Assembly: GCA_020091685.1 (NCBI GenBank)
Contig: CM034606.1
Location: 16,399,695 to 16,463,694 of the forward strand
DNA: 64,000 bases
Direction: 5' to 3'
DNA from: Lutjanus erythropterus
Lineage: Eukaryota; Chordata; Actinopteri; Lutjaniformes; Lutjanidae
The notes under the pieces are model-generated. The model did no database searches, had not been told where the DNA came from, and saw only the letters and a program-made list of their open reading frames with translations. The translations under genes and the position numbers were made by a program. Position 1 is the first letter of the stretch, and each line of letters starts with the position of its first letter. Positions 9,122 through 62,636 of this stretch are shown here, piece after piece.

Positions 9122-12100
9122 TTACTTGGTCCCATAATGCTTGGTTGAAGACTGGCCATACAGCCCATAGAAGTCAGGGTGCCTGGCTGTCTGTGAGGCC
9201 TCCATCAGCCCCCTCATGGGAAAATGCTGCAGCGGCTGGCTTGCAGGCAGCGGGGCATGTGGGGGAAACTCCTGAGAGGTCATGGAGGGGAAGGAGTCCG
9301 ACGCTGGGTACGGAGGCCGGGCACGAGCAGCAGTGGGGGCCCTGGAGCAGCAGCAGTTATTCAGAGTGCACATCAGTACTTTCCTCCCTTCGTACATGGC
9401 TTGTTGCGAGGCACCTCCGCTGGGGAAGTGGGAGGGGGGGAATATGGTCCCTGAGTGGTGGCTAGAGCTGGACCCTAGACCCACCATGTGATGGGCTGAA
9501 GTGTCAAGGAGCCGGCTGTGGCCGGGGCCAGCGTGAGGATTCTGGGACAGGCCTTCAGAGGAATACATGGATGAAGCACGGTGGCCCTGGTCACCTAGAA
9601 AGGGTTTTTTGCTGCTGTAGAGCAAAGGCGGAGGATCCTGGGAGGTGGAGTTTGCTGTGTTACTCTCCAGGAATGCCATGCCGTATTTCCTTTTCTGTAG
9701 TCCTGAACTACAAGTGGAGCCAGCGGAGGTGCTGTGAGACTGGACGATCTCAAGTATGGGCGCCTCATTGATTGGTTCTGAAGGTTGTGGAAAAGAAAAA
9801 AGATAATAGTTAAAAGGATAGTACAGATTATTTAATGTATGGTTATACCAGGTACTTATCAATAGTCAGTGTATTGGCTTGAAGAAACAAAGAGGGCCAA
9901 ATATTGCTTGTTTTTTACCTTGCAGAACACAGGAGTTGCTGGTCAACTGCTGCCACGATCGGTTAGTTTGTTTGTTTTATTGTGTGACTTTGATGAATCT
10001 GAACTTATTTAAACACTAAAGTCACACAATAACACAAATGAAGGAACAGATTGAGGCAGCGGTAGACCAGAAACTCCTGTGTTCTACAAGGTAAAATGAC
10101 TGATTTCACCCATGGAGTTTGGTTGGTTCGGAGAGAGGGATATTTGGCTTATCTGACTGCAATTTCTTGCTGGAAAAGGCTGCCTGACACAAAGTAAAGC
10201 AGGGAAAATGTTCTAAATATAGCGTACACTTAAGGTGAACATTTTTTTACCTTAAGTGTACGCTGAACTAAACTGACCTTCATCTACTGTAGGTAATACA
10301 CTGAATATCTGTAAGTACATCATACAACTCCATATTACATAAGCTGAACTAGCCCTTTAATTCTGACAGAAATTGTTAAATATCACATTCATCACTGATC
10401 TTTATTAGTGGTTGCAATTTTTTCTTACCCTCCAACATTTTTCGCAGGTTCTTTTCTCTCGTTGAGAGTTCGGACAGCAAATGATGAGAGTTGAGCTGGC
10501 CCACTCTGAGTGGAGGGATGGCACTAGTCAGGTGAGAGTTCGACCTAAAAAAAAAAAAAAAGAGACGCACATAAAATATAAGAGACCAGATTCAGTAAGC
10601 TGTTTGCACCCATGGTTGAAACCCATTCTGCACTTTGATGCATGCATTTAATTTTCACTGCAAGACTGGAAGCATACTTTGCTGGTAAACTGATATATAC
10701 ATTAGATGCAATAGTGAAATACACACCTCTCCTTCACACATTTTGAGCAGGAAGGTGAATAATGGAAAGAGATTTATCAAGTGTGGTTGATTGAATATTA
10801 CTAGGGTTCTCCAAATTTGCAAGTTTTTACTCTTGCATGATCGGTTCTCTGGTTTGAAAACAGGTAAATAATTCAATTGAGAAGAGAATATCCGATTGTG
10901 TTCTAATGTTCTAACCTCAATGACAGCAGGTTAAGGATCTTTGGATCAAAACATGACCACGAAAGCATCACTAATAAAAAATATACAAAAATATGCAATC
11001 AGGAAATTGGGGTTAATGCTTACCAGTCATGGATTGTGAAAACCAATCTATTGCAAAAAACTTGAGCCAAATTTCAGCTGAGCTGGTGACATGGTCGCAT
11101 GGTAAACAGAAAAAAAACTTAAGTGGCTAGAATATAACACATTTAATGATGTAATGTACTGCGGTGTGCACTGCCAGTTTTCTCAACTTGCCGAGAAGTC
11201 CAGCTTTGTTCCCTGAATGCATCAGAAACAATGCCTCCAGGAAACATCACATCATAGTTAATCGGAAAATTGGACAACACAAGTGTCACATTGACGAAAG
11301 GCTATGTTAAGGTGTGTGAAAATTGTTTTTACACAAGTTTACATTTGGGTCACTAAAAATTTACTTTGACCACTAAAATTAGGGGCTTGGTGCCCGGTGG
11401 GACCTGGGCTTAAAATTATTAACGTCTATCCCTATTAATAATCATCCATTTACTTTGATTGGTTTGACCCAGCCAGACATGATCGCTACAGAAATGGAAA
11501 TGCTTACCTGTCCATTAGCAGCTGGTAAGGTTTTGTGTTCTGAAAAGGACAACAAGATTCATAAGTCATTCAGCAATCATCTGCCATTAAACATCTCACT
11601 AACAGCTAAGATGAGGAGAACAGAAAAATACATGTATATAGGCATCAGTGCTTGCGGTAAATGAGGATTGTTCGTGAAACTGCGGTTTGTGTGTTGCTGA
11701 AAACAGAACATTTAATTCTGTGGTATACTAACACTGTACAACACTTCCAGTTGGCCTGTGCGCTGTGTGTGTATTGTGTGTGTTTGTGTGGCTGTGCAGA
11801 CATGAATGCATGTGGCAGAAGTAGAGAGAGAAGTGCACATTTGTACCTTCATGAAGTTAATGCTGTCTGATCTTTGGAAGAACGTTTGTACTGAGCTCAG
11901 GAGTTTTTCTGCTTCCTGCCGCTTCTCGTTGAGCTGCAGCACCTGCTGGGAGTTTTTCCTCACGTACATGGTAAAAGTGCTCTCCAGCATCTGCACGGTT
12001 TCAGCCTGGTTCGCTTCGAGCAGCGCATGCATCCTCTGATACTGGGCTCTCACACGCTCCTTCAGTTCGGACACTGCGTCCTGTGGAGAGTGGATAGGTT

Positions 12101-15100
12101 GGACACAAGTTTTCTGTTTAGAAAGGAAGTCGCCACCAGCACACATCTCTCTGCTGATACTTGTGGTTGATGAGGAGGAGCTTTTTGTCAAGTCTGAGAT
12201 AAATTACCACTCCACCCATCCCTACCATACACTTATTTTCATCATTTATGGGAGGAGCAGGCATCTTCAGGGGTAGATAGCAGGTCAACAGCATATGCAC
12301 ACTGAAGTGCATCATATGAAAGCTGGGACCCTGAAGTTTAATTTAGGATGCAGACAAATCTGTAAACTGTGTGTTTTCTTTAGGCGCCTATTCAAATTTT
12401 GAAAGTTCAGAGTTTACAGGGGCTAAAAACATTGTGATGGAAGTAAATGATGGTCATTCATATGCTCTTTCTTATCAGTTGTTACAGCAGATTTGGGTAT
12501 AATACCACTTACTACACTGAGCTGTAGCCTTCTTTCAGCACTCGAGAATGAATATAAATGGTCAGAAATCCCCCCAGAATACCACATTGAGCAACAATGC
12601 AGAAAAATCCATGCTGTGATTTAGTACCAAAAACTTGTGACATTTTGGAATTTTTGGAATTGCAGTTTTTTTCTGTGATTGGATGGTGAACACTTCTGTT
12701 CTGGAAATTGCTCGGAACCCCCTTATTGTCAGTACACTGGGGAAAACCATATATCCTCTGAATCCAATGGGCGTCTAGTTTGTGGTCGTGGAGTTTCATG
12801 ACGTTGTGATTGCCGTAGAGGTCAGTAAAGGTCATTTTATAATGTGAGGGAGAGCTTAAGAAAAAATGGTCGCACTAAAATGAAATGGTTACTATGGGGA
12901 CTAACATCATCACACACGGAGACACATGAATCCATTGAATCCACAAAAGTCTCAGCTTTCCAGTCACACCCAAGTTATGAAATTCCAAATCTATGTAGGG
13001 CATGCGGTATGCAGAAATACTGAAATAGAATAGGCTAAAATAACACATTTACTGCATGCAAATAATTGCATGGTTTTGGCCAAAGCGGCATGGGATTAGC
13101 ATGAAGTGGGCATATATATGTAAAGGTGAGACCCATTTTCATTCAGATACCTTGAGGTGACAAGGCTAGGGACTTCTTTGAAGATCGCAACACTAGTTTT
13201 TCACAATTTTCACTTCACAGTTAGCCTAACTTTGGAGTGTTATTCCCACAAGCTAGTATGACAGAAGACATAGGTACAGATAAATATGGTACTAGCTTTA
13301 AAACTGAGCCTGCTACAGCCTCTGAAAGAGAGTCAGGATGACTGAGGCAGTGTTGAAAAAGTTAAATCGCTGGAGTTACCTTTTTAGCACTTGTTTCTTC
13401 AATTTATCAGCAAAAGCATCTAATCTACATAAATTATCATTAGCGCCATTCAGCAAAAACTGGTATAAAACAAAACAAATTATGCATCAATACACAGTAA
13501 TAAATTGATGTGTTCAGTGATTGCATATTTAAGTATATTTTTCTTACTTCATTATGTGGAGTCTGTGCTTTTCTTGTTCAGGACTGAAGAAGGAAAGTCA
13601 TTTATAAAATGCATTTTCCAGCCTAATGCACTAGCCATTCCAAGCTGGAGATAAATTACATTTTCTTTTCATTTTCTAACAGCGAACAAAGGTACGGAGC
13701 CATTTCATTACAGCACCAAAATGCACATGATGACAAAGAACTGTACTGATAATGTTCAGGATGGTGTTTCTGTGTGTGGTACTGTACCTTCATCAGTGTC
13801 TTGTCTGACTCCAGCTTGGTGAGCTGCTCATCGATGTTCTGAACACGACCCTCCAGTCTGTCTTGCTGCCTCATTAGCATGGCCTGTGGAGGGATGACAT
13901 ACGAGAGATGGATTAGACAGATGACCCACAACAAGATGCACTGAAAATAGAAAAATAGTACACATACACACACACACTTTCTTAAAACTCAGGCCTCTGC
14001 TGTGACCTCAGCAAACCTGGCTGCTGTTCATTAGTCACTAAGACAACCTCCTCCTCCACAGGCCTGATGAGACGGAGGAAACAACAGCTGCCAGCGACAA
14101 CCACATGCATTTATCCATTAGGAGAGCACCGGTTAAAGGCACAAACAATTGCGCAAATACATCTCTGATTGCTTCTAAGTTTATCAGGGACTGTGTTACA
14201 TCAAGTGAAGTCCATTGTTGGGACCAGCCTACTTCCTCTGTGGGCTGAAAAGCCAGTAAAAGAGCCGGTAAAACATAATCCTTCTCCATTTACTGCAGGA
14301 GATGGAAATCAATCCACAGTCACAGGCTGACAGCTAACTAGGAACAGGGGAGGGCAGGTACGCTTTTTAATGAACTGTTTCTGCATGGGAAAGGCACCAT
14401 GCCCAAATAAGAGGAAAAAAAAACCTGCTGTCATGGCAACAAAGCCTTGTGTATGTATTTATATGTGGAAGCTAATGTGTATGTGAGGGAGCAGGAGGAG
14501 CAAAAAGCGGGGGTGTCTCTCTCTACCCCTCTCTGCTTTCTCATTTTGCCACATGCATTGCTCCCATTGTTTGCATTGGCCTCTGTGTCAGTGACAGATT
14601 GTCATGTCTGTGTGCATAACGCCGGGGTCGGCTCTCTCCCTCCGCATGAGTGTGCATGGGAGAAAGGCAACGGCAGGAAAGGCAAAGTGCTGTGGGGCTC
14701 TGCTTGCACATGCCAAGAACGGACAGAAAGAAAGTGAGAAAGACATACAAAAAGAGGGTGAAAGCAACAGGGAGAAAGTTTGAAGCAAAAAAAAAAAAGA
14801 GAGAGATAGGGAGAATGAGGACATTCCTGCGGTCTCTTGTGAGCGGGTTTCAGGGTAGCTACATTGTGGTATCACAGCAACAGGCCTCTTCAGCTGCTTA
14901 CAACACTCATGGAGTCTTATGTACAACAACTGGCTGGCCACTACACTATACCACAGTGAACACTTCCAATAGTCTGTCTAGTTTTTTAAAACAAAACAGC
15001 AAAAAAAAGACTCTAGATGACATTAAAAAATATCAAATATATAATATTACACCCACTTTTTCTTGTTTGCATAATCTCAACTGTCCTTCTTAGTGGAGAA

Positions 15101-18100
15101 GTGCTGACAATATTGGCACCTGTGAAAAGGCAGAAATGTTTCTGTCTCCTCCAGCTCATGTTTGACAATTCAGACTTTGGACTATTGGCAATGGAAGCAC
15201 TAACAAGGGAAGACAGCATAAACAAATGAAGCATTTAAACTGTTAAAGCAGCATCAATTGATTTTTTTGGGGGGGCCATTCAGGGACATATTATCACCAT
15301 ATCAAATTGCTGGCGAACGAATCAGCAAACAGTTGTTGAATTACACATCCAGCAGACTGGGACCAACATTAAAATTGGTTTTGAGTTATATCTCTGGTCA
15401 CCCGATGAATGCAGGTTCAATAAACATTCTCCTTTTAGCTCTCCACCAAATTATTTGGCTTACTAGCAGCTAAATGCTGGCAGTGTTAGTTAATCCGTCC
15501 CTATTATATATAGGCAGAGGGCAAAACTCTGCAGATACAGCCACCACCACACACTTTTAACTGGCGAACCTGAACCTGAACCTGAAAATGAACATAATAT
15601 GGCCTGTTTAAGACAGATGTGCTGCGTGAGCAAGTTATGTTTGATGAAGGATCCCGTTCTTCACAACACATCAATGATGAAGACGGTCATGCACACCACC
15701 AACACAGGGGTGAGGTAGTAAGTTGGTGGAGTTCATCTTTGAAAAAATGCAGCAATTCATTAATGGAAGAGGAGAAGAAGAAGTTTACAACAAAGTAAAG
15801 GATGCATTAAGCTACTTTAAGCTAAGCCGAAGCTACACACTTGTGAAACGTAGCAAGCTTAGCTACAGCAACATAGAAAAGTTTTTTTACTACATCAAAG
15901 CTATTTTAATTATCCCTAAGACAATCCCTGAATTCAATACATCATTTTTTCCAGAGCTGACGATGGAAGTGGCTCGCTTCCTTCTCATCTCTGTTGTGAG
16001 TTGCAGGAGGTACAGATCAGTTACTGACAGACACCCTTTAGTTTTGCTGACTTTGCAACCATTAGAGACTAAATTAAATAAAGGTTAGAAACACTTCTGA
16101 GTACATATTGAATACAAATTTGTTTACATGCCTCCTTGTCACATCCCACACCTGCACTACACACTACATCTTGCTTCAGGTAAACAATCCTCTTTAAACA
16201 ATCTGATATCAGCCATAAGGACATACAGATGCCAATTAAGTAAATCAAGTATTTCATTTGATTCCTTTTTGTCTAATACCAACCTTATGAATGGAAAAAA
16301 TGGAGCACAATAAACTACCAGCTGCATCAAATAAACCACTCTTGACTTCGCCACACCACAGACTGTATGGGCCGTAGCTGCTGTGATAGTGGGCCAATCA
16401 CATGTCATCTTAAACTGAAGAACACCTGCAGTGATTGGCTGCGGCCAAAACCACACAAGTAGTGATTTTTTTCAGAATCTGGTTACTAAAAAGATTGAAT
16501 GCAGGTATCGTTTGACTGGATAAATTTGTTTAATCTAGTTTTTCATGTACTGTGTGCACCACACTTAACTTTTCAGAAAGCACTCTTGCGTTAATAATCA
16601 CTGTCTTAACACAATGCATAGTATCTCAGTGGCACCTCAGCTCTTCTGTGTGACTGTATTGACAAAAACAGGAAAAAACACAGTTGGGTTATTGCTATCG
16701 TAAATGGTGCATTAACTGCTTTATGGCAACAGCTTCTCTGTGCCTGGATGCTTCGACTCAACAACTGTGTTTTCCTCATTTTACCGTGTTTCCTCCAATT
16801 CCCTTCTTGTCTTGTTGTGTGCTTGAAATAGCATAAGGAGACAGGAGGGAACTGTCTGGTTGCTGATCTCTCTGTAGCAGCGTGAAAGCCTACCTTTATC
16901 AAGATTAAACCCGCCAATGATCACTTTCCCCACTGTCCTATTTAGGCATCCAGACACCCGCGGGTTGCCAGGAAGCTCATGTTTAAATGAGGAGCCTCAG
17001 GCTCAATGAACAGAGAGCCTCTTTCACAATCAACTGACAACTATTCCCCACGTCTGATGTCAATGGACTGCCCTCAGCATTCTGGGGAACTGACTCACTC
17101 CAGCCCAGATACAAGAAACTGCAAACGGCAGAGCTTCCATGAGCGACGGTTTCCTGCTTTTAGGTGCCTGAGAAAACCAAGGTGAGGTTGTGTGGGAGGG
17201 CTCCTCCTCCGCCTGTCCCAGGGACGACATTACTATTATATTACCCTCCCTTTCTCCTCTTTAAATTACCAGCACGCTTGCAAAAGGTTACTATAAAAGC
17301 CTCCTATGAGAGCCAAAGATAACTGAAGATATGAACATTGGTTTTTCCCTCTTTGTTTATCCCAAAAGCAACAAGAGTGCTGCCAGGGGAATTTAAAGTC
17401 CTTTTACAAAAATAGCCCACAGCAGCTCTGTCAAGGAGAACAACCTTTCAGTAAGTAATGAAGAGAAGCCACTCCAGCCTCAAATTACTTCAACAAAGTA
17501 TTACCCAGCATACAAGACGCCTAACTTTTGCCTACTGCCACATTTATCAATATGAGAGTGCACTCTGTGTCTGGTCTAGAGGCCAGAGCATGGAGAGTGT
17601 TAATCTGAGAAGAGCCAGGACCTCTGACTCCTGGATAGCTCCATTTACTCTGCGAACATACAGTGGGAAAAGAAAGGAAAGATGGGTGGGTGTGTGCATG
17701 TGTGTGTGTAGAGAGCAGCTGTGGAAAGGGCTGAACAGACATCTTTTGTCCCAATAATAGCTCCGGACCAGAGCAACAGTTTGTGCCGAAAAGACTTCAA
17801 CAGATTTAGAACTTTGTGATCTACACAGTGGAAAGAAACGCCATCTGTAACTTTCTAAACTGGAATAATCTGATCACCAAACATATCAACAAGACTGCAA
17901 CATGGCAGATGCTAAAACTAATCTGATTCTCACTCCCACCCTTCACAGATAGGGAGGAAGAGGGAAGAAATGAATATAAGGCAGCGTGGGTGGTTGTTTT
18001 TTTTACACCTTGCCAATTACATTAGACTTGTGAAAAGAAAGTGAAGTGAAAAAAGGTACAGAAGTGAGGAAAATACAGACGTGGACACCACCATGACACG

Positions 18101-21100
18101 CCGGCCTCATGCGAGATATATTCTTTCATGCATCCTGAGGTCAACCCTGCCAGTTAGATTAACACATACTGTAGAGGCCTATTATATTCGCAGCCCCTGG
18201 GCCAAATACGGCGCTAGAAGCTATGTGACATTTCAGCATCAAAATGTATAAAAATGCTGGTCATATGTTATATATTTTGTTAAGTTGTATGCAGACACTA
18301 TCCCAAATGTTTCCAGCCATGTTAACACAGAGAAATCTGTAATTTATTCAAGGTATCAGTGTTTCCTGGTAGTGGTTGGTAGCTAGCTGCATCAGGTACA
18401 TCACATCGAGGAGCAAAAGTTGGTACGTAAGATACAAGAATATTCACTGTCAGTGTGGTAAACGGCTAAACGGTGCTGATGACAGTTACTACTGATGGTA
18501 GTTTGTGTAGGAGGCTGCTGAAGTTCAGTCATTATGATACAGTGCTGAAGCATCAGACTGACGTCTATGAATAAATCTTAGCCTAGCTTAGATCAACAGT
18601 TGTCTTTTAACAGGTTGTGTTATTTACAAACAACATTAGGGCTAACAATACCTGGTAATTCAATATATGCAGTGTCTGGGCACAGTTGGGTCATTGATCC
18701 ACTTGGACAGGGGAAAGACTGAGGAGCATGACAGGTAAGATGTAGCGAACGCTCAAGTTCAGACAAGGTCACCAAATAACAAGACATGTCTGTAAAACAA
18801 AGGTTTGTTTAACTCAATATGAATTCATAAAAGCTCATTCAAATCCGTCTGCCTGAAATTTGGCTTGCAGCAAAAACAAACCGTGTTCAGTAACTTTTTT
18901 CTGTGCAGGTTGTTGATTTAAGAAAAAGAAATGTGTACCTGGACTTTTTCTTCTTTTTGCCATTGTATCCAAAGAGTTATTGTGTATTGGTTTTTTATAC
19001 TATAAAAATACTATTGTATAGAAATCAAAGATGCATTGCTTTTTCCTGCATTGCTTTGTACATAATGTTTCTTTTCCTAATAGAGAAAATACAAAAAGGT
19101 GCATTGTTTACACATTTAAATTCCTAACTTTACGGGTCAAACATAAGAAATGTAAATGTCCAGCCCCTTGGCACTGTGAGTGAATAGGCCTGGCAGTCCA
19201 TTTTCCTCCCTTCTTTTCTACTTTTGTCTCCTCGAACATTTCACTACAATCGCCTTTCAGCTCCTGGGAATGGCTGAAATGCAAACTTGGCTTGTGAGCG
19301 TTTTCACAAATCACCACATTTCCTTCTCAAAAACAGCATGTCAATTCATTCATCAGCCCATGAAGCCTCGCCAGCGTGCATTTCCTCATGAACAAATCCC
19401 GAAACGGATGAGGGCAGCTAACATAAACAAACTACATGTGGATCCACCCCTACTACAGGGGGGGGTCATCATTTCCGGTGCACGCAGATTGCATCACAGC
19501 ACTTACCCGAGGGCACAGGGCGGCTAATGTGAGGGTGTGGCGGTGTGGAATGTGTGGTTTCATCAAGGTTAAAAGCAGCGTGTTTGTGACGTATGTCTAC
19601 ATGTGAGTGCATGCATGTGTGTGTGCTATCATCTACCCTGAGGGGTGGCTTTCACCTGTCCGGTCCTTTCACATCAGATAAGATTAAAGAACGAGGCAAA
19701 GGGAGAAGGCCTTTATAGACTGATGAACTGGAAGAAATGTTTGCTTCTTTGAAAGAACGAAAGAAAGATCTGTGGAAGAGAGTGCATCTATCAAACTTTT
19801 TGACAGTACCCTGCCTGTCAGCTCAAGTGAAAAGACCTTTTTCACGGCAGCCATGTTTATATGAAGATGCCAGGTGTTAGCAATGACACTTATTAAGGTC
19901 CTGTTCCATTTAGTGTAGCAGGGTCTTTCCAGTGAGTCAACATACACAATAGCAGCACCCTGACTCAGTTTAACCAGCATGGAGCGGAACCTTAAAGGGA
20001 TAGTTCAGATTATTTGATGTAGGGTTGCATGAGGTATTTATCGACAGTCAGTGTATTACCTGATGGCCTAGATGGCAGCTGGCATGGAGAAGCAGAGAGG
20101 GGCGCCAGCACAGAAGCTAACCAATGAACTACAGTGGACAGGGTCAGCCAGAAAAAGTATTTTAGCGACTTAAAAAAGGTCCACCTAACAACATCAACAT
20201 CTGTTTAAGTGTACACTATATTTAGAATATGTTCATTGCTTTACTTTGCCATCAAACAGCCTTTTCACACAGCTGTTATATAAGCCAAATATCACTCCCT
20301 CTCCCACCCAACCAAACTGCATAGACAAAAACAGTCATTTTACCTTGTAGAACACAGGGGTTGCAGGTCTACCGTTGCCTCAGTCTGTTAGTTTGTTTGT
20401 GTCATTGTGCGACTTTGGTGTTTAACTAGGATAGTTCAGATTCACCAAAGTCACACAATGACACAAACAAACTAACAGATCGAGGCAGTGGTAGACCAAC
20501 AACTCTTATGTTCTGTGAGGTAAAATCACCTATTTCGCCTATGGAGTTTGGTTGGTTTAGAGAGAGATGTTTGGCTTGTATCACTGTGGTTTTCCATTGG
20601 AAAAATTTTGTCTGATAGCAAAGTAAAGTCGTAAAAAATATCGTGTACTATTAGACTCATATTGATTTTTTATTGATGGACCTTTTCTAAATGTCTAAAT
20701 GTTGTTGACCCTGTCCACAGCAGTTCAGTCCTTAGCTTCCATGCTGGTATTTCTTTCTGGTACATTGACTATTGATAAGTACCTCTAGAAATCCCACTTC
20801 AAATAACTGGAACTATCCCTTTAATCAGTATCATTGATAACACCTGTGTTTACCCTATTATTTCATGTCAAATGGCTTCTGTGAAGCAGGTCCACTGGTG
20901 AGAAGGGGAGGATGTTTATGTACCTGCATTTGTATGCGTTGGGTATCCACATCGCAGACTGTGTGTCTTTGGTTAGTGCAGTGAGAGATGCAGCAGAACG
21001 GACACAGAGCCACCTGCTCTTCCTCACAGTGGAGCAGCCTGTACTCCTCATGACTGGGACAGGTCCAAGCGCTCAGCTCCTCAGCGTCAACTAACAGGTG

Positions 21101-21493
21101 TCCCGGCGCTGCACACGGCTGCTGTAGGTGCGTCTGGATATGGGTTTGGCAGCAAGGCTCCTTACAGCGCAGGCAGACCTTCCGCACGGGCAGCGGGGGG
21201 CCTCGTCTGCAGAGGACACAGTGCAGCACAGCGGGGACTTTCTCAGTGTTCAAGGCATTAAACCGCTTCACTATGTTGGCAAGCTTAAAGTTCTTCTCCA
21301 GTGTGGGTTTCTGGTCGTAGTCATGGTTGCATTCGGGACAGCGGACCGCAGCGTTGTCTTTGGCCCAAGCCTCAGAGATGCAACCCTTGCAAAAGTTGTG
21401 CTTGCATGGCAGCTGGATGGGTTCCTCAAAGACATTCAGGCAAATGGGACACAAAAGCTCCTCTTCGAAGCAGTTTTTCCAACTTGCATCCAT
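9122..21493 (-). CDS. trim8: TRIM8 E3 ubiquitin ligase (six coding exons)
   Basis: Coding exons, 5' to 3' on the - strand: 21493-20924, 13883-13788, 12080-11847, 11539-11508 (32 nt), 10544-10429, 9777-9122; all introns are GT-AG and all join in phase to give 567 aa (human TRIM8 is 551). The RING finger has C15, C18, C30, H32, C35, C38, C52 and C55; two B-boxes follow at about 92-132 and 145-180, then a coiled coil encoded by exons 2-3 (about 191-300). The long C-terminal tail ends in YGQSSTKHYGTK, close to the human QPSTKHYVTS end. Known role of the family: E3 ligase acting in NF-kB, STAT/SOCS1 and p53 signalling, in cytoplasm and nucleus. The start was chosen because MDASWKNCFEEELLCPIC aligns with the human N-terminus; an in-frame ATG 26 codons upstream (21571) exists. 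Which teleost paralogue (a or b) this is cannot be told. Confidence 0.95.
9810..10360. mobile_element. Palindromic dispersed element, family 1, copy B
   Basis: It lies in the last trim8 intron. The left end is TTAAAAGGATAGTACAGATT and the right end CTAGCCCTTTAA. The internal words match copy A (ACAGGAGTTGCTGGTC; GTTAGTTTGTTTG and its inverse). It contains a perfect small palindrome, arms AGCGTACACTTAAGGT and inverse, at about 10218-10264. Confidence 0.75.
13884..20923 (-). other. trim8 intron 1
   Basis: A 7-kb intron between the RING/B-box exon and the coiled-coil exons. Apart from family-1 copy C (19992-20824) I see no coding sequence. The stretch 16920-17760 is less AT-rich and low in repeats, and 14450-14800 is purine-rich. 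Large first introns of developmental genes often hold enhancers, but no individual element can be defined from sequence alone. Confidence 0.7.
19992..20824. mobile_element. Palindromic dispersed element, family 1, copy C
   Basis: The best-preserved copy: it starts TTAAAGGGATAGTTCAGATT and ends AACTATCCCTTTAA. The centre is a strong foldback: GTTTGTTTGTGTCATTGTG at about 20392-20410 and its inverse CACAATGACACAAACAAAC at about 20454-20472. It sits 99 bases from trim8 coding exon 1, inside intron 1. Confidence 0.8.
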
Positions 21494-21756
21494 GACTTCA
21501 GCTGGATCCAAACTGATGTTGTGTGACAAAAAGGAGCAAAGCAAAGAATTATTTTCTGGTCTGAAATGCATAGAAAAATAGGCTACCCTTATAAAGTCTA
21601 AGTTATACTTTACTTATACAGAAAGATGTGGGCAAAGCAAACCCAGAGGTGGAGAGGATCTTAGGTATAAAGATTTAAAAGCATAACTGGGAGTGTATTT
21701 AAACACTGGCAGGTGACAAGTGACTTGACAGAAACAGGTAAGATCAACTCAAAATG

Positions 21757-40139: not shown

Positions 40140-43100
40140 GGAACATGAGATTTTAGGTTAGTGTGGATTTGTAGATGATTTTGATTGGCTGATACGCTGT
40201 CAATCAAACAGTAGGAAGATGTGATTTCAGGTTTTGCACTTCAAAAGTTTTTCAAGGGGCCAAATGGGTCTTTAAAGAAAAGTACAATAACGAATGATTG
40301 AAGACGTAGTCAGAGTGTTTATTCAAGAAAAATCAGCAATACGAAAATGTACAATTACTCTATTTAAGTCCCGCACTGAAAGTTTTATTTGAGTGAAAGC
40401 AGAGAAGTAATCTAATAATTTATAACTATTTCTAAATAAATATATTACTCCATCTCCACCAGTCAGACGAGTGTGACCCACATGTAACTCCGTAGTGGTG
40501 GCAGGCTAGGTCAATTATTATTCTTTTTATGTTTATTTTAATTTTAATATATTCTATTATTTACATTTTTATTGTTTATTATTTAAAAAAATCAGAGCAT
40601 GGATTTTATTTTATGCACTAGGAATGAAGCACATTTTTTGTTGACATGGTGCAAATATTCTTAATACATTTCTACTATCTTCCTGATACATTTCTCTTGC
40701 GTTGTTCTTTCATTTAACTAATTATAGAAGTGTAAAAGGCTTAGTCAGTTTTTTCCAGGGGACATGCATGAGGGGATCCTTGATATATTTCCTATCGTGT
40801 AAGGGATCTTTGGCTGAGAAAAAAAAAATTAAGAACCTCTAATTTAATCTACTCATTATCGGAAAATGGAAATATTCAAGTAAAGCACAAGTACCACAAA
40901 ACTGTGCTTCAGTAAAATACTTGAGTAAATGTGTTTCAGTTACTTTCCACCTCTTCAACTGATGTTATTGTATTAAGTAACATTTTGGCTTTTAATTCCA
41001 CATTTAGACATGTTTATTTTATTATTTCAATATGGTTTCACAATCCTTTAGTCTATAAGTATGAAAATATATTTTATTATATTACTAATTGTGCTATATT
41101 AATATTGGTTGCTTGTAAACATTTATTAAAAGAAAGCATTGTTATTAAGGAGCTCTACATTTCTTGTAGGGTCAAAGAATTCAGTCAAAATATCCCTTCA
41201 CTTTGAAAATTATATAGCATATTAGTCTCCATGATACCATCATTATTTTGGGACTGTTCACTACTGATACTTGTACTCTATGCTGTGTACAGAATAATAC
41301 ATGACTTGAATAAAATTATCCACTTAAGAAAAATGAAAATAGGCATTAGAAAACACTTACATCATGAGAAAAAAACGCTTAGTGTTTTTAATCATTACTT
41401 TCCTGATGAGAGATAATTGTGGCACACTCATCTTTTACATAATACTGAATCCGAGAGTAGAGCAACGGTAAACACGGTGTCTTATCAGCCGATGGATTTT
41501 CCGCCGTGCAAAGATCATCTAGGTGTAGAGATGTCAGCCATTCTTTACACACCTCTTCTTTATACCTTATATTTCTCATACATATTGCTGCATGCTGCAA
41601 GAGAGTGATGTTTCCATTAAACCTTCCTCACACACACAGTGGCAAAAAAGCACCCACCCTTTTCTGCCTATCACCATCATACATTATACCTGGAGGCCAA
41701 GAACTATAGAACCAAACCAGGTTGGTGACAAAAAAAAATCACTGATACAGAGCCTTTCCTGTAATGCCGTTAAATTCGTGTGGGAGTTATGTGTGCAAAT
41801 TCAGCAGCCATGACCATCCATGACTGCAGCGCAAGAACAAGGTTTGGATTGAGCTTTGCCGCCTTAAACAGGTCATTTCTTGGCGGAGACTGAAGACGGT
41901 CTATAGTCATGTCATGGAACTAACAGTTGTCAAGAGCATATCCGAGAATAACTTCCAGACTCTAAAGGGACCTAAAAAAGAACTGCTTCAAACCAGTATC
42001 GGTGTACTACAACTCTGATTGAGTCAACATAACAACATGCTGTTTTGTATTTTATGCTTCAAAAGTCACAGCTGTAGGTTATGTTAGATTCCCATGATAC
42101 TGTAATTGAAATGACGTTGGCAGTCATATGTAATCATAGTGTTTACAGCCAACCTAGGTAACTGCCATCACCACAGCTGCAGATTTTATAGGGCTAAAGC
42201 AGAGATAAGATCTGAAAAACAGAGGTCTGTACGTGTGGGTGAGGTAGCCCGGTAGCCATTGTATTTCTGAAAATTATTGTCCTTGAATGCTCTTGCCCTT
42301 TAAAAAATGTATGACTCAAATGTCGCAATATTTTAAACAAACAAAATGTCACGAGAGTTAATAAATTTCAGAGGAAAATGATTCACTTTGCTTGACTTTA
42401 TTAAAAATGTACACGTTTAACAACAACTGATCAGTAATTTAGACACGTTTATTTGACTCACAGTATTATTACATGCAAAATAATTCTTTAATCATCATTT
42501 AAAGAAAGGTAACAATGCACACAAACATACAGATAAAAATAATGCTGGAATGAATGTAAACCACACACTTTGATGGTCATGATTTCCACGCTGACAGGCT
42601 GACAGACTAGTACCATGCCAAAAGAACTGAGCCCATAGATGACACCTGAAGACGCCACCATCTATGGAATTCAGTTCTCATAGTAGAGCACTCATCAAAG
42701 TTTGGCCCTCGGGAGCCTCTTGATCCTTGAATGGCTTAATCATCTGACACATGCTTAATTATTAGTGTCCTTTTCAACTCAGTTTCACAAATAAATGAAA
42801 ACAAAGTAACACCATTTACAACAAATAACACAACACAAAATGTATGAAATTCACAATAAAAAGTGGGTTCAGGATATATGAATATATTGAGCCGCGCACT
42901 GAAGTGAAGTCACTCATGACCAAGCCTATTTCTCAAGAAGAGCAGGGTGATGAGATAATAACGTCAGCCCTACTCCTTTCATTGGAAGATTGAGCAATAG
43001 GGCATTACACTGTAAAAAAAAAAAAGAAAGAAAAAAAAAGAAAAAACTGTTGAAAAAACATAATTTCAAGGAAACTGGCTTCACTTAGTCTTTGAATTTT

Positions 43101-43909: not shown

Positions 43910-45967
43910 GTTGAGTTTGATTTGAAACTCAGAAATTTAGTAAAAACAGTCGCCTTGACTTTTGTCCTTTTTTTACAGTGTACAGTAGCAACTGAAGTTA
44001 ACCATAAACAGTGATAAAACATAGTTGGCATTTTCATCATACATTTATTTAAAACATCTACTGTCGTGGCCACACACCAAGAAGCACTTCATGTCAGTGA
44101 AACAATGTGAAAAACAAACCTCTAAAATGAAGTTATGATTGAAAGGATCCAATGCTGTGGTTAGACAAAGCCTATGGAGCGTTTTAGGGTCATCTGAGGA
44201 AACCCATCCCCTCAACCTCCTGGTATTCCTGGAAAAGCTTCACAACTGAAACGAAAGTCTGTATACTGGGCTGATGCAAGCACTGAATCAGATCATGGTG
44301 ATACTGCTCTGGTCAAGGAATGAAATGACTCATCAGTTATGGCCGAACACTCCCAGGAAAATAACTTTAGGACAATATGATCATTCACATACAGTTGCTC
44401 GCTGTATCTTTGAACCCTCCGGAGTAAAGTTTGCCATTAACTGACCTGCGTTGCATTTTAGGATCTCTTCCTTCATCTAAAATAAAAAAAAAACAACCTC
44501 ACTCAAGGCCTGCAGTCAATATTGACAGTGACAGCTCAGTTGGATCAATGTTATCTCAGTCACTGTAGTTTATTCAGTATGAGTGTACATTCTTTTAGGA
44601 TACATGTAAAACAGTACAATGAACTTTGTGAGGAAGGCCACACCTGAACACGTTCAGGAAACTCCTATCTTTCCGGCAGTTGGACTGGGAAACAACCGGT
44701 TCTACAGCCTATTACTAGACAAGAAATCCCATATTAGGGCATTAACCCACTCATAAGGCCTGCACTCATTTAAACGGCTCTCAAACAAAAAGGTCAGATT
44801 GGTCAAATTACCCACATCCTGATCAGAAATGTGGAAGTTAGTGTTTCTTTATACTTATTTAAAAAATTTCACAACTTAAAACATGTTGAAAGTAGCCTGT
44901 AGTTTTGTTTATGGCAATTTTTAGAAAAAAAGTGTCAAATAGTTTTTAAATTTGATCATAATTTGACCAATTTTCTGCCTATATACTTACCCCAGACATT
45001 CAGAGAAAATGTTCTGTCCAGATCAGAAATACATGTCCTTATGAAGGCCTCCCCGGACTGCGCTCTCGCAGAGTTTAAACCCACTTCAGAGGTCCCATCT
45101 CAACAAAAAGATGTCTGAGCGTTGAATCAGCAGCAAGCCTTTTTCCAAAATGAATGAACACACAGTGGAGCCATCTCTCCCCAGTTCACCTGCACGTTCT
45201 GCTCCCATGGCCTCCAAGTTCCAAGGAAGGATACAGCAGCATACTGTCTGACATTCAGAGCAAAGCACCTTAAATACCACCACCTTTCACATCACCCATC
45301 AGCCTCCCTCCCTCCCTCCCTCCTCTCTATCTGTTTCTCATACACTCCCTCCGTTCGGTAAGCCTGACAGTCACTTCCCAGTAAGAAGGAAACAGTGGGA
45401 GTGAACAGCACGCCCCCTCACAGTGAATCAACACATAATAGTTTCTGAGGAAAACCATCTGACTGGCCCTGCCCCCTGTTCCCATAAAGTAAGCAGGGGA
45501 AAGGCTGCGTCTACTCGAGGAGCCAGGAATTCCCCCACAGGCCATGAACAGCTGTCGAGATGAGAGACGATGACGGAGCCGACACACTGGAAGTTTGCTG
45601 GCCTGGCCGTATGCAAACAGAAACCGTGTTTGGTGTTTTGTATAGAGAAATAGTGTTTAACACTGCAGTGTGTTTACATAATAAGTGAATGGAAATTCTG
45701 TCCACACACTGTGGGTGTTGAAATGCACAGTCATGTTTGAGCTGGTGACACCACGTTTCCTAGAAAAGTGTTTTTTATCTTTGCTAAATGGTATTTATCA
45801 GCAGGTCAGTGCATACTGCTTGCGTCATGGGTGTGTTTAGGATGAGATCGATTCATGTGGATATTTGTGTAGCTGGTGATATTTATTCAGGTGAGGTCTG
45901 ATACGGGTGTATTCAGTGAGGCAGCATTCATAAAATAGCTTTGTTTGCTCTCTGGTCACAATCAAAC

Positions 45968-49812: not shown

Positions 49813-52800
49813 TCAACCGTCCTTTGCCGTTTTAAATCGTAGAGCTACTACATGTCTTTGAAGTCCTTCCTCCCCGTCCCAAAGGTGATCCACAGAGAAA
49901 ATCCCCCTCTGCTCCACGAACGTCTCAAACAGGTGCAGCCCACCACCTACGCCAAAGTAGTGGGATTTGGTGGCGAGGTAGACCAGTCCGCCGGGTGCCA
50001 GCAGTTTGTGGAGGGTCTCATGTAGCGTGGAGTAGTATGCAGTGTTGTAGATTGTCTCTGAGGTGAATATAATGTCATATTTGGGTGGTGGGTCCTCCCT
50101 TTTAACCAAAGCAAGAAATGTGCTCCAGTCACCAGAGAAAAAGCGACACTTGGCGAGTAAAGGGTGCTGGGTTAGGTCTAAAGCTCTCTTCTTAGGTGGT
50201 GGGTGGCCATCTTTTACCTCCTGTTTCTCTTTCGCCTTCACTTTTCCACCATCTTCCTGCTGTAATTTTCCTTTGCCCCTCCCTTCTTTGTCATCTTCGC
50301 TGTCTACCTCATCATCCTCTTGGCAGTTTAGTATTACATTTGGCACTGTAAGCTGTTCAATAACTGTGCTGTTATAATCTTGGAAGTGGACCTGCCTGGC
50401 TCCTCTCTTCAGAGCCAAAATCCCCAACAGCCCCGCACCGCAGCCCAAATCCAACACCGTCTTCCCCCCGAACGTCTCTCCGTCTTTCTCAATCAGCTCC
50501 AGAAGGTCATAAGTGCACTCCCACACCTTCAGCCCGCCCTCGTACACGCCAGAGATGAGATCAGACCTCTGCTCCGCGGTGCGGGAGAGAATTTTCTCCC
50601 CGTCCTCCCTCTCAGGGGCCGTCTTTTCAAAAACTGTCTCGTTGAGAAAGTGAAGGGGAGGAAGAGTTCCTATGGTAACGGTTTCAGCGACAGCATCCAT
50701 GAGGAGGAACTGCGGGTCAGATAAGGGAAGGTGCTCTTTGGACTCTTTTACGGGCTCTGCCGGTTTGGTTTCATTGCCAGTCTGAAAAATAAAAGGCAGT
50801 AAACATGGTTAGGGAACAAATGTCTTCCCTCAGATACATACAGTATGTGTCTGAAATGACAAGAAGGGAAGCAACATGTGTTTTATATTGACAATACCAA
50901 GCTTGAGGCACACTCAGCATTACAGATATAAATCAGTAATACGCTGAGGAATGTGCACTCAGAGGAAACAACTTGTAGCATGAAATTTTCAGACCAACTC
51001 TCTTCATAGACCATTTTTCACTTGGCAAATATCATAACCTTATTTTGTGGGTGGACCAAAACAACTCCCACTGCTTCCTGTGCTTACTTTGGGAAAAAAA
51101 AAAAAATCAAAATTCTAGTCAATGGTGAAAGACTGATTTTTTGATCCCATCTGAATTGAACTGTCAATTAATAACATCATTTTTCAACAAAAAAAAGTTG
51201 CTGTTTGTTGTAAAATTGTTGAAGTATCAGACTGTAAAGGTACGTAAGCAATGTCATGGCGACTGGACGGATGTATCGACTATCATTGGGTGATTCTGTC
51301 ATCTTATTTTGCTAATTTAATCATTTGCAGAGTGACAGGCACTGCTCCGCCTACAGTATAATACAGTACACACCCACTGAGCCGGAGGACGAGTGAGAGG
51401 AAAACTGCCTACAGGACATGACTATTGACTATATAGAGTTGGTGATTATTATAACAGTGGACAGAGTGACCAAGACGGTTTTGGGGAGTTTTATTTTTGT
51501 AGCGACTTCGGAGTCGTTGAGAGGCTGAGGCTGGGCCTTCTACTTTGTCTGACAAGCTTATATATGAAAAAAAAAATTACTGAGATACGAAAAAACTCAT
51601 GATACCGTGCACAAACTCATAATCAAAATGATTACAGTGATCAAAGAAAATAGTGGTCAACAAAAATATGGCGACCCCGTTCACCCTCTCTCTCCTACAA
51701 CTGTACTTATGTCTGTCAGGTTTAAATGAAGTGTGTTTTATGGAGTTAAAAAGGCAATTAAAGCTCGTCTCAGTTGTGAAAAGGGATAAAACTTTAATGC
51801 AGAAGATGATCAGTTGTATTTTTTTGATTTAATGTTTAAGAATACTTCCTTTCTTGACTTCTTGTGAATTTAGTTTGTTGTTTCTCAAAGCTTTCATCTT
51901 TAACCACATCCATGTTATGACCATCTTTGTTTTTTCTGACTAGCAGTGGCAGCTGGCATGTGATAAAACATTTCTGAACCACTGCTTCTCGATTCTGGCA
52001 ACCAACAACACAGCACAGTGACATTTAAACTCAGTTACGTGGCCTACTACACTTAAGTGATTTGTTTGCCTCCAGTTTTTCCTTTGTTTGACCTCCAGTT
52101 AACACCATGACATAAACATGACCTCAGCTCTGAAGGGGTCTATAGGAACTTCCTACAAACCGTGGGCGTCACAAATATGCTGTTTTACTCAGAAACAAAA
52201 TGTACACTGTTACTGTTTTATTAAATTAATTCAAATCACTGCACATACAATATCTTACTAACACGCTTTATTATTTTACTTTATTAACTTAGTTTAATTC
52301 TTACTAACAATACAGTACATTCAGAACTGGTTAAAACTGATTCAAAACCCACAAGTTTCAGTTAACATGGCTCTCGTGAAACCTGCTGAGGAAATCAAAT
52401 CAATGTTGTGAGCTCAAAGGAAGCCAGATGATCTGTTATTATAGGATCCTTCTGGATGAGAAACACTGTGAACATGAGGGAGGGGAATTAAACCCCACAA
52501 TACGATATAATCACAATACTTTGTTATTATGATTTTAAGCATTTTGTGATATGAGTATTGTAATAACATAAATACATTTATTACCTTTTGTTCAATTGCA
52601 AATACTGATGCCCAATCCACATATTTGTTGAAGAGTATGGACTGATGTCTGCCTATCACAGCTATATCAGTCTATATCGATATTGGCCAATATGTGCCTT
52701 AATGAAAACTTATTTTATTAAACAGAAACTAAGGAAGATTGCTCTTATTTGTTAGCTTTATATGCCACATTTTCTTTGTTTTCTTCTTTCTCTTAATTCA

Positions 52801-58181: not shown

Positions 58182-58286
58182 ATGCAGGATGCGGTGGTGT
58201 CCCAGCTCAGTGCTCCACCTGCTGCGCTGTGTGCGGTTATGCTCATACACCAGGAGAGGAAGGAGCAGAGTGCCTCTGTGGATTAG
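58182..58286 (+). CDS. Upstream ORF overlapping the zdhhc16 start
   Basis: An ATG 7 bases before the main start, in the +1-shifted frame and with a weak context (C at -3), opens about 34 codons ending at TAG 58284-58286 inside the coding region. Initiation here would exclude the main frame, so it could reduce zdhhc16 translation. It may simply be bypassed. Confidence 0.3.
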   Translation: MQDAVVSQLSAPPAALCAVMLIHQERKEQSASVD

Positions 58287-61200
58287 GGAAATATGGGCTT
58301 ACATGAGTGTGCTGGTGCAGTCACTTTACTTTAACTCCCTCACAGACTCAGATGTGGTTTTCGACTCAATCTTTGAACCAGTGTTTTGGACTGTGGATTA
58401 TATCACGCGCTGGTTTGGCACGGTGAGTGTGTGCTTGCTTGTGTGCTTTAACTGCACAGTTTTTAGCTTTTTTTCTCTGAAGAAAACTCACTATGGGCAT
58501 CCCCTGTCTTTGTGTGGTAGGTGTTTGTTTGTCTGGTGGTGATACTGACCAGCTCCATCGTGGTGATTGCCTACGTGGTCCTCCTGCCTCTTGTCCTCAA
58601 CACATACACTCCTGTATGGATCGCTTGGCACGTTTGTTATGGACATTGGAACCTCATCATGATCGCTTTCCATTACTACAAGGCTGCCATGACGTCCCCT
58701 GGATCCCCACCTACAGTAAGATAACAGCTACACTTTTCTGCAGAACTATGAATAGCTTCACTAATCTGGGCTTGCATCAAACTTAGATTTTGTAATGCAA
58801 CTAAAATGTCTCCTTTCAATCAGGAAAAAAATGACAGTCCCTTTGTGGCAGTCTGCAAAAAATGCATCATGCCCAAACCAGCAAGAACACACCACTGTGG
58901 TATCTGTAACAGGTGAGTTTGTCTTCTGTTCTGTATCTCCTTAATTTATGTTTTGTTTTGTTTTTTATTTGTAGTATCAGGTGTTTCTTAGCTTGTCAAA
59001 TTTGCACCATCGATGTCCACAGTTCTTGGAGTAAAAAAAGGTCCTAGCACTGTTAGGTTGAGTATTAAACTTAATTAAACTAAATAAGTTCTTAGTTAAC
59101 CTATAGTCATAGGATTTCCTTAATTAATTTACTAGTTGACTTAATTGAAAAATCTGTAAAAATGTCTTCTTCAGTGTTGCTAACATTCTGCAGATGGAAA
59201 GTGGATTTACAGGTTGCAGGTCTGGTTTGGCTGTGGGCTGTTAAGCAGGGAAAAGCCTTGCTGAGTTGTCTGTATAAATATCAAACTGTGTATTTTCTTT
59301 TTCCTTTGCAGGTGCATTCTGAAAATGGACCATCATTGCCGTATCCTTTGTGCCAACATCATTTCTTGTAGTATCAGAAATGACGTATTGTGACTGTGAA
59401 GAGATTGTACTTTTCCTTAATGTCAGCATTTCAGCCTGGTTGAATAACTGTGTGGGTCACTTTAACCACCGTTACTTCTTCTCCTTCTGCCTCTTCATGA
59501 CCTTGGGCTGTGTCTACTGTAGCATCAGTGGCAGAAAACTGTTCCTAGATGCATACAGTGCTCTTGAGGTGAGATGCTCAGGCTTGTACCACACTGTTGG
59601 ACTGCTATTGTTGCTGGCCTGCTTGACAGTTTTTGTCCTTGTAACAGGGTTTTCACAAGTCCCTAAAAAGTCTGAAATCCAATAATCTGAATTTTAGGCC
59701 TTAAAATATCTTCAATATGATTTTGACATGTCTTAAAATTTGATTAGACTTTGAAAAAAATGTTACTTTTTCAAAGCGAACTGTGCAGCCCGGTCAGAAT
59801 TCGTTTTACTAATTTATTTTATTAGAGCTAACACAGCAATCCTTATGTTTTTGTTAAAGGCATAATTTGCAAGATTTTCATTAAAAAAAAATGCATACAG
59901 AAATAATCCCCCCCAGTTGTCACCCACCATCCACCTTGTGCCTGTGCCATCTTATTTTCTCAACATTCATATACAAGCAAATCCCATTTATTGTACCTTC
60001 AAAGTTACTTTCATTTAATATGTGCAAGTGCAAGTTCAGCTAGATCTGGCTTGAGAACAGTGCATTTAGTGCTTAGTTTAAGCCTGTTGAAAATAATTTT
60101 AAAGCCTGCTGGACTTTGCACAAGCAAACTAGGAACTTTGGGCATAAAGGCATTAGAGTGTCATGGGAAATCAGAAAACCATATATCAAGCCATATAGCA
60201 CCAGCAAACACCTGCCATCACCAAATATTAATCTGGATTAATGTAATTGGTGCATGAACATCGTTAACTCCTGCAACTCCAACCAGCCACCATCTATGCA
60301 AACATTAAAAGCAGAAGAGCACTGGACTTGACACACGGTAACTAAACATCGGTCATAGAAAAGCAGTGAAGGTGTAGGTGAGCTGTTTCAAACCATGTTT
60401 ACCGATTCTGACATGGCTAAAACCTTCATACTTTCTTTGCCAGTATAGATGTGAAATAAGTCCTAAATTGCATCTACAGTGTTCTTAAAAAGGTCTTAAA
60501 TTTAACTTGTTAAACCTGTGCAAACCCTGTTGTAAGGCCTGACGCCTGGTGTCTTTCTTTTGCGGGGCTTAACTGTTCCTGACTGACTCTGCCTTGTTTC
60601 TGTCTTTAACACCCGGGTTTGTTTACGTGGGCTCTTCCATTAGCGCTTTAAACATTTGGACATGGACAAGCCAGGGGTGCCAGTAACAGGGATGGGGCTG
60701 CTTATAGGGCTTCTCCCTCCAGGCCAGGTACAGTTTCAAAAGTACACACACAACAACATGATTAAGCGCGCGTGTTTTATTTTCAGTTAGTTATTTCATA
60801 TGTGCTCTTTTTAGACCAACTATCAGACACCTGCACCTCCGTACACCTTTAAGGATAAGATGATTCATAAGAGCATCATCTACATGTGGGTGCTTACCAG
60901 GTAAGAATTTTATTTGGCCATCATTCATACGTATTGCCATGGCAACTAATGCCCCCTTTAGACTTTGTATTTAACTGTGTCTTGAATTCAAATTGTATCT
61001 AGATATGCTTTAACCTGATTACATTTACACCTGGTATTAATATGTGTCTCTGGTGTCCACAATGAGATCCGACTAAAGACCGCTAAAAGATGCCACATGA
61101 CATAATACACCCACTGGCATGTTTATGACGTCTTCACACATTCATTTACCTATAGCCAAATAATCACAAACTCACTACAGGGACACTGCATTTAATATTT

Positions 61201-62636
61201 AATATTATAAGATCAAACTAACAGTTTAATATTTCCACATTTATTTTCTTATTCTTTTGCAGATTAACTATTTTTTTATGGCACGCCTATGATTCCATAT
61301 AGAAACACCTGAGATCCAGGGGAAGAGAGTGAGAGAAGCTCAAACAAACTATTTAGACATTTACAAGATCAAATGATCTATTTACATATTTCCAAGATAT
61401 AGTAACAGTAGTAATCTAGAGAAAGAGGGAGTAAGCTCACTCATACTTTGAAAAACTTAAGTCTAGCGAAAGTTTCAAAAGCAAGAGTGTCGCTCTCACT
61501 CCTGCATTTTGCTATATTTGTTGCTAGTTGCTTTTTAGAAATAAAAAAAGTCTGAAAAGTTGCAGTGCATCTTGAGTGCATTTTCACCTGTATTGTTAGG
61601 TGATCAAGCACTATCCAAATGCAAGCCATTCACCCACAACACATTTCAAGGCAAGTAGGTCTGATTCAAATCAGGTTTTGTGTATGTTTTACATTAGAAA
61701 AGTTTCAAAATTAAATATACTTAGAGATGTCAGTCTGCATACTAAATCCATTTGGAATGCAGGGACAGCTGTGAAAAACAAAAACAGCTCCAGGAAGAGG
61801 AAACAAACAATAGCATTAATTGTATGGAAAAACCATTTAGGTTCCTTTGTGTCGAGTGCCATTGACAGAGGTATTTACAATCTGATTGAAGGATTTACTT
61901 ATCACTTCCTGGTAGTACAGAACAATAAATTGCCTAGAGTTATGTCACGTCAACTCCAGACAGGTTGCCCTATAAATAACACTGTTTGTCTAAACTGTCA
62001 GTATATGTAGTGTTAAGTTAGGATAAGGTGGCTGTCTTTTATTATCTTGGCGGCCGATCAAGTGAAACGTGTTTTGGTCTTTTAGCACAGTGGGAGTGGC
62101 TCTGGGAGCCCTGACCTTCTGGCATGCAGTTCTCATATCCAGAGGAGAGACCAGCATAGAAAGACACATTAACGGCAAAGAAACAAAGCGAATGGCAAAA
62201 CGAGGAAAGGTGAGCCTGTTAAATACATTAAATGCTGAAATAATTTAAGTTTCGATAAGTTAACATAGATTATTTATGATTAAATTGTGGTGACCTTTAA
62301 TATATGTTTAATTGCTCCATTTCCTCTTAAATTGCTCTGCCAGGTCTACAGAAACCCTTATAACTATGGCAGACTGAATAACTGGAAAGTCTTCTTTGGC
62401 GTGGAGAAGAGAAGGTGTGTTTGTCTGATATCTGTAATGATTTTCTGTTCAGTGTCATGTGTCACTTACGTCACATATCAGTGCTACCTTGTACTTCCTG
62501 TAATCCCTGTTTTGCTTTATCCTTTGTCTCTAGTCACTGGGTGACACGTGTTCTCCTACCCTCTGGACACACCCCACATGGTGACGGTTTGACATGGGAC
62601 ATCTTCCCAGTTAAAAAGGACTTAATACCTGTATGA
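58189..62636 (+). CDS. zdhhc16: ZDHHC16 palmitoyltransferase (ten coding exons)
   Basis: Coding exons: 58189-58422, 58521-58715, 58824-58912, 59312-59340 (29 nt), 59435-59568, 60644-60727, 60815-60900, 62086-62209, 62344-62414, 62534-62636 (stop TGA). All join in phase to 382 aa (human 377). FEPVFWTVDYITRWFG precedes two membrane segments (about 79-100 and 115-135); the cysteine-rich DHHC domain runs from C154 to about residue 205, with CKKCIMPKPARTHHCGICNR, D179-H-H-C182 and PWLNNCVGHFNHRYFFSFC; two more membrane segments follow, and RNPYNYGRLNNWKVFFGVE matches the human tail. C182 is the acyl-accepting cysteine. Known role: ER/Golgi S-acyltransferase (Aph2); ZDHHC6 and phospholamban are reported substrates. 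The intron after 59340 is U12-type. The ATG at 58189 has A at -3. Confidence 0.97.
59341..59434 (+). other. zdhhc16: U12-type (minor spliceosome) intron of zdhhc16
   Basis: The 94-nt intron begins GTATCCTTTG, the canonical U12 donor, and has TTCCTTAAT at 59413-59421, the canonical U12 branch site, 13 bases before exon 5; it ends in CAG. It interrupts the Pro codon of DHHC-P in D179-H-H-C-P. The other introns in this window whose boundaries I set have ordinary U2-type donors. Confidence 0.9.

Follow-up and report, generated by a model that had tools for sequence, protein, structure and literature searches.

The window, a stretch of 64,000 nucleotides at C16:16399695-16463694 of the Lutjanus erythropterus assembly (937.6 Mb in 444 contigs), carries on its plus strand a gene whose ten joined coding exons (58189-62636) form a single unbroken reading frame of 382 codons (Table 1). 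The product contains the DHHC domain PF01529 (E value of 4.2e-33; 114.7 bits against a Pfam cut-off of 28.7). A protein search with this product yielded 1189 matches, and the figures given below rest on the 120 of these that were listed. Sixteen of the 20 best matches listed are named ZDHHC16A and are 77 to 88% identical over the whole query; the other four are unnamed or carry the plain name "palmitoyltransferase", and the best match, which is unnamed, is 90% identical. The best match between the product and the solved chains of DHHC20, DHHC5, DHHC9, and ERF2 is confined to approximately residues 147 to 220. As its full-length likeness is to ZDHHC16 and not to another DHHC group, the gene is zdhhc16a. 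The exon borders are fixed by the unbroken 382-amino-acid frame, the Pfam DHHC match, and the ZDHHC16A relatives. One of the listed relatives, P0001 (382 amino acids), stems from a source whose longest contig measures 1824 nt, and the zdhhc16a coding exons span 4.4 kb here. A whole frame of this type fits on such short contigs only without introns, which suggests that the relatives splice at the same borders. ZDHHC16 isoforms were found to differ by 28 amino acids, the coding length of exon 6 (for example, the Scophthalmus isoforms X1 and X3, with 391 and 363 amino acids), and exon 6 has the look of a conserved cassette exon.

Table 1. Coding exons, introns flanking exon 4, and splice signals of zdhhc16a in the window.
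Feature	Position	Strand
Coding exon 1 (from ATG)	58189..58422	+
Coding exon 2	58521..58715	+
Coding exon 3, cysteine-rich part of DHHC domain	58824..58912	+
Intron 3, U2-type, donor CAG/GTGAGT (9/9)	58913..59311	+
Coding exon 4, 29 nt, ..CILKMDHHC plus first base of Pro codon	59312..59340	+
Intron 4, U12-type GT-AG, 94 nt, phase 1	59341..59434	+
U12 donor GTATCCTTTG of intron 4	59341..59350	+
U12 branch sequence TTCCTTAAT of intron 4	59413..59421	+
Coding exon 5 (CC-TGG.., PWLNNCVG)	59435..59568	+
Cryptic acceptor AG within exon 5	59521..59522	+
Coding exon 6, 84 nt, 28 codons, probable cassette exon	60644..60727	+
Coding exon 7	60815..60900	+
Coding exon 8	62086..62209	+
Coding exon 9	62344..62414	+
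Coding exon 10, to stop codon	62534..62636	+

Several further features lie on the minus strand of the window. A mir-146 microRNA precursor was detected at 42605-42695 (62.9 bits; Rfam gathering score of 50). Pieces of a TRIM-type gene, possibly TRIM8, extend over 9125-21613; they include a RING exon above the Pfam cut-off (20861-21613) and a coiled-coil-like frame that stays under it (11715-12203; 24 bits, cut-off of 30), and the long frame at 9125-9865 gave no Pfam match. An open frame of 331 codons, counted from stop to stop (49816-50808), contains the methyltransferase domains PF13489 and PF10294 and is possibly METTL18.

Intron 4 of zdhhc16a interrupts the DHHC-P motif inside the proline codon that follows the catalytic cysteine (TGC C/CC TGG). 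This placement had been claimed in the earlier note, and we could confirm it together with the U12-type donor and the branch sequence, the latter being separated from exon 5 by 13 nt (AG included). The 29-nt length of the preceding exon and the U2 type of the intron upstream of it were likewise borne out, and at the sequence level both the U12 type of intron 4 and the assignment of the gene to ZDHHC16 hold. Only the range 59312..59434, which had been called the intron, has to be divided, as it comprises exon 4 in addition to the intron proper.

Splice sites were scored against 9-mer U12 and U2 consensus strings (U12 donor RTATCCTTT; branch TTCCTTRAY). The intron 4 donor GTATCCTTT agrees with the U12 consensus at 9/9 and with the U2 consensus at 3/9 positions, and its branch shows no mismatch. 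The other eight zdhhc16a introns score 3 to 6 of 9 as U12 donors and 6 to 9 of 9 as U2 donors, with two to three mismatches in the best branch match near the acceptor, so that intron 4 is the sole U12-like intron among the nine. Within the 20 bases before its acceptor AG, the pyrimidine content is 70%. The sequences ATATCCTT and TCCTTAAC are given in PMC2831892.

How often such signals arise by chance was estimated from 60 first-order Markov simulations of the 64-kb window. Among 7800 GT sites on both strands of the window, a single one, the intron 4 donor, reaches 9/9 for the U12 consensus, and a perfect TTCCTTRAY occurs 8 to 20 nt upstream of 4 of the 8119 AG sites. The exact combination of donor, branch, and AG was found once in the window and in none of the 60 simulated windows. 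When one donor mismatch was allowed, four pairs were obtained in the window (both strands), and the simulations gave a mean of 0.53, with at least one pair in 25/60. Since pairs with one mismatch are common in the simulations, what makes the evidence strong is that the match is exact and falls on an exon border that the protein fixes independently. Among the other U12-like pairs of the window is one on the minus strand (45234-44304), with the donor GTATCCTTC, the branch TTCCTTGAC at 44320, and an AG approximately 930 nt from the donor. These other pairs could not be placed in a gene: for the minus-strand one, no adjoining coding exon could be identified, and a long minus-strand frame near it (45330-45656) gave no Pfam match.

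A second ZDHHC16-like gene is located on C20 (locus L013). It also contains a 29-nt exon (1868-1896) with the same codon split; the mini-exon is followed by a C/GTATCCTTC donor, an intron of 142 nt, and an acceptor with CCTGG after it. The branch is weaker (GACCTGAAC; three mismatches, counted by eye), and a script scan detected no perfect U12 branch in L013. Because exon 5 of L013 is similar to ZDHHC16B models (P0123 among them), we regard the locus as zdhhc16b-like. The identical donor at the identical codon indicates that the intron predates the duplication that separated the two genes.

We then placed both genes within the DHHC family of this genome. A PF01529 profile search gave at least 40 matches, all 40 of which are covered by 34 fetched loci and the window gene; these hold 33 distinct DHHC motifs, as L033 is without DHHC codons and L008 and L025 represent one gene. 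Only 2 of the 33 motifs, those of the two zdhhc16 genes, have a U12 donor in the codon that follows the cysteine. U2-like donors (6 to 7 of 9) located 4 nt further downstream (TG/G) were found in L009-L012, L023, L027, L032, and L034. The four DHHC2/15/20-like loci L009-L012 resemble zdhhc16 in the start of the mini-exon carrying ..LKMDHHC (AG/RTGYRT..AARATGGA), and their next exon, VNNCVGFSNYK.., resembles human DHHC20; unlike in zdhhc16, the mini-exon measures 33 nt and the U2-like donor follows CCNTG. The L009 donor GTAGGCTTT matches 7/9 positions of the U12 string and 6/9 of the U2 string but is without the ATCC core.

As a positive control, four loci that we take to be ZDHHC5/8-like (L016, L017, L020, and L029) were inspected. 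In all four, GTATCCTT lies at +167, counted from where the DHHC codons begin, and a sequence resembling the branch, mismatched at no more than one position, precedes an AG within the fetched DNA of L016, L017, and L029, but not of L020. This distance led us to reject a shared position of the ZDHHC5/8-like and ZDHHC16 U12 introns: unlike in zdhhc16a, the motif is unsplit in these loci and the preceding exon is no micro-exon. In locus L014, presumably DHHC3/7-like, a perfect U12 branch, TTCCTTAAC, is located 14 nt ahead of the acceptor border that precedes the DHHC exon. A U12 intron was nevertheless rejected for L014, as the donor is of the U2 type (CAG/GTAGGA), and the locus serves as a useful decoy.

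Protein models of other species provided a further view of the intron, since a model that reads through the exon border reports the DNA adjoining it; such models may be annotation artefacts, and codon degeneracy leaves some bases open. Of the 120 listed ZDHHC16 relatives (out of 1189), 113 read DHHCPW, 3 read DHHCRIL, and 4 are without DHHC. The three read-throughs, which all continue as DHHC-RIL, are from Clinocottus analis (P0019), Echeneis naucrates (P0041), and Hippocampus zosterae (P0075). RIL corresponds to CGT ATC CTT, that is, C/GTATCCTT, whereas RK or RE would be expected from the U2 donor GTRAGT. In the branch region, P0019 has FLN, as TTCCTTAAT reads, and P0041 and P0075 have YLN and ILS, respectively. 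A targeted search, in which the use of the read-through segment as the query biases the outcome towards RIL, yielded 11 proteins from 25 candidates; 3 of these are ordinary and 8 continue past DHHC, with RIL in 7 and RTF in 1. The exception, an unnamed ZDHHC16-like protein (P0122), points to a donor that is not U12-like there. Further RIL models are ZDHHC16B of Syngnathoides, of Acipenser, and of the lizard Phrynosoma, as well as the unnamed P0121, which shows FFLN before the acceptor. The Acipenser and Phrynosoma models (P0124 and P0125) begin with RIL and read the intron only partly. P0124 (Acipenser ruthenus) reads DHHC-RILFLKISA-W, with donor-like and acceptor-like residues, as if the middle of the intron had been removed. 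By its divergence, P0121 could be guessed to come from an invertebrate; a protein search with P0121 as the query returned only P0121 itself.

The earlier note had named, as an outcome that would speak against it, an intron of the U2 type at this place in all other vertebrates. Our observations point in the opposite direction: the donor GTATCCTTC is kept in the zdhhc16b-like paralog, and RIL follows DHHC in seven proteins, which include models from several other vertebrates. The RTF of P0122 and the weak branch of L013 speak against a conserved type. The models from other species suggest that intron 4 predates bony vertebrates, and it possibly also predates their split from invertebrates.

To describe what would result if intron 4 were not removed correctly, we computed the products of three alternative paths. 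Retention of the intron gives a truncated product of 199 amino acids ending with DHHCRILCANIISCSIRNDVL. Skipping of exon 4 had been predicted to shift the frame and destroy the DHHC motif, and the computed product, 176 amino acids long, is indeed frameshifted with the motif lost. A path that uses U2 sites only, by joining 58912 to 59523 behind the cryptic acceptor, stays in frame and gives 343 amino acids without DHHC. The latter kind of junction is present in predicted models of Girardinichthys (P0077) and Solea (P0083), and the DHHC exon is absent in the models of Atractosteus (P0105) and Danionella (P0115). Retention models in which the frame is kept were found in three fish genera; for Hippocampus zosterae, the retained model P0075 (429 amino acids) exists along with a spliced one, P0060 (403 amino acids). 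In the exon-bridging model of PMC8034651, exons that adjoin minor introns are skipped by the major spliceosome once parts of the minor spliceosome are lost, and the predicted zdhhc16a failure products fit this model.

Taken together, we consider it highly probable that intron 4 of zdhhc16a is an old U12-type GT-AG intron, placed in the proline codon after the DHHC cysteine and preceded by a 29-nt exon with a U2 intron upstream. The alternative of a U2-type intron that is removed by the major spliceosome and whose likeness to the U12 consensus is accidental draws on the GT-AG ends, the pyrimidine-rich stretch before the acceptor, and the decoy at L014, where an intron with a U2-type donor nevertheless has a perfect branch ahead of its acceptor, demonstrating that a branch match alone proves nothing. 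Yet the poor agreement of the donor with the U2 consensus, the absence of the exact donor and branch combination from all simulated windows, and the conservation of the donor in the zdhhc16b-like gene as well as in other vertebrate models render this explanation extremely improbable, and it was rejected on the donor and branch scores and the simulations. A different question is whether the U12 intron of ZDHHC16 and the U2 intron 4 nt downstream in the DHHC2/15/20-like genes go back to one ancestor that changed its type and slid. The common start of the mini-exon (29 nt in the two zdhhc16 genes, 33 nt in L009-L012) and the 7/9 U12 match of the L009 donor would agree with such a history; however, a 4-nt difference at both ends needs a concerted shift, for which independent gain is the simpler account, and the occurrence of U2-like donors at this +5 position in L023, L027, L032, and L034 as well indicates that the downstream intron may be separate and old. 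We therefore regard sliding as very unlikely.

Given the U12-type reading, the retained-intron and exon-skipped ZDHHC16 proteins could be regulated products, with the intron switching between active and dead enzyme. The in-frame retention models, among them the pair of Hippocampus zosterae models, and the cryptic-acceptor skipping modeled in Girardinichthys and Solea would be in line with this idea. However, retained or skipped forms amount to only 5 of the 120 listed relatives and are predicted models, in contrast to the 113 that read DHHCPW, and in this window retention breaks the frame and leads to truncation; such a switch thus appears unlikely. An extended version, in which this minor intron has served as an on/off point at the catalytic codon from a time preceding the divergence of vertebrates and invertebrates, and in which the proportion of active to dead enzyme, and with it the ZDHHC16-to-ZDHHC6 palmitoylation cascade (PMC5582869), is controlled by the activity of the minor spliceosome, is speculative and seems more doubtful still.

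For the U12-type intron, we infer that splicing is carried out by the minor spliceosome and that its failure costs enzyme activity. U11 and U6atac would pair with the donor and U12 would pair with the branch, while U11/U12 proteins might form a bridge across the 29-nt exon to U2AF on the acceptor upstream of it. Upon failure, intron 4 could be retained, leading to a premature stop here and, in species in which the intron is in frame, to an insertion after the catalytic cysteine; alternatively, U2 sites could be used to skip the 29-nt exon. Retention and skipping alike would cause the catalytic DHHC-P center to be lost or disrupted. The statement in the earlier note that the correct enzyme cannot be made without the minor spliceosome is itself an inference, and U2 sites alone would still give the in-frame protein of 343 amino acids, although one that is devoid of the DHHC motif.

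A U12-type intron within a DHHC palmitoyltransferase gene is not without precedent. ZDHHC8 carries a U12-type intron, intron 4 of 11, in fruit fly and human according to Table 2 of PMC2831892, and ZDHHC8 is also named in PMC2952598; zdhhc16a resembles it in having a U12 GT-AG intron in such a gene. Retention of the final ZDHHC8 intron in tumors is the subject in PMC10705125. Like the minor-intron genes described in passages of PMC8034651, zdhhc16a has one U12 intron among U2 introns and skipping of the flanking exon as the predicted failure mode. Unlike in the cases presented there, the flanking exon is just 29 nt long and holds the catalytic motif; ZDHHC16 is not named in those passages. Human ZDHHC16 appears as an SF3B1 splicing target at the junction of exons 9 and 10 in PMC4863743, and ZDHHC16 figures in SF3B1 effects in PMC10120771. 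The event in PMC4863743 does not involve intron 4 but another junction, at which SF3B1 mutation acts through a cryptic 3' splice site. Two intron-retention papers use ZDHHC16 merely as a control for decay inhibition. A named report of the ZDHHC16 U12 intron was not found in the literature searched, although the intron may well stand in catalogue supplements, which lay outside the search; zdhhc is absent from the main text of the zebrafish Zrsr2 paper (PMC9501576).

As a DHHC enzyme with a U12 intron is already known from ZDHHC8, the zdhhc16a intron is, by its sequence, an ordinary member of its class in an unusually telling place. It may explain the loss of DHHC in some gene models, such as those of Atractosteus and Danionella. 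An upstream palmitoyltransferase, cut at its catalytic codon, is likely to be a direct dependant of the minor spliceosome, so that fish mutants of this machinery could be assayed cleanly at one intron, scored as retained, skipped, or spliced.
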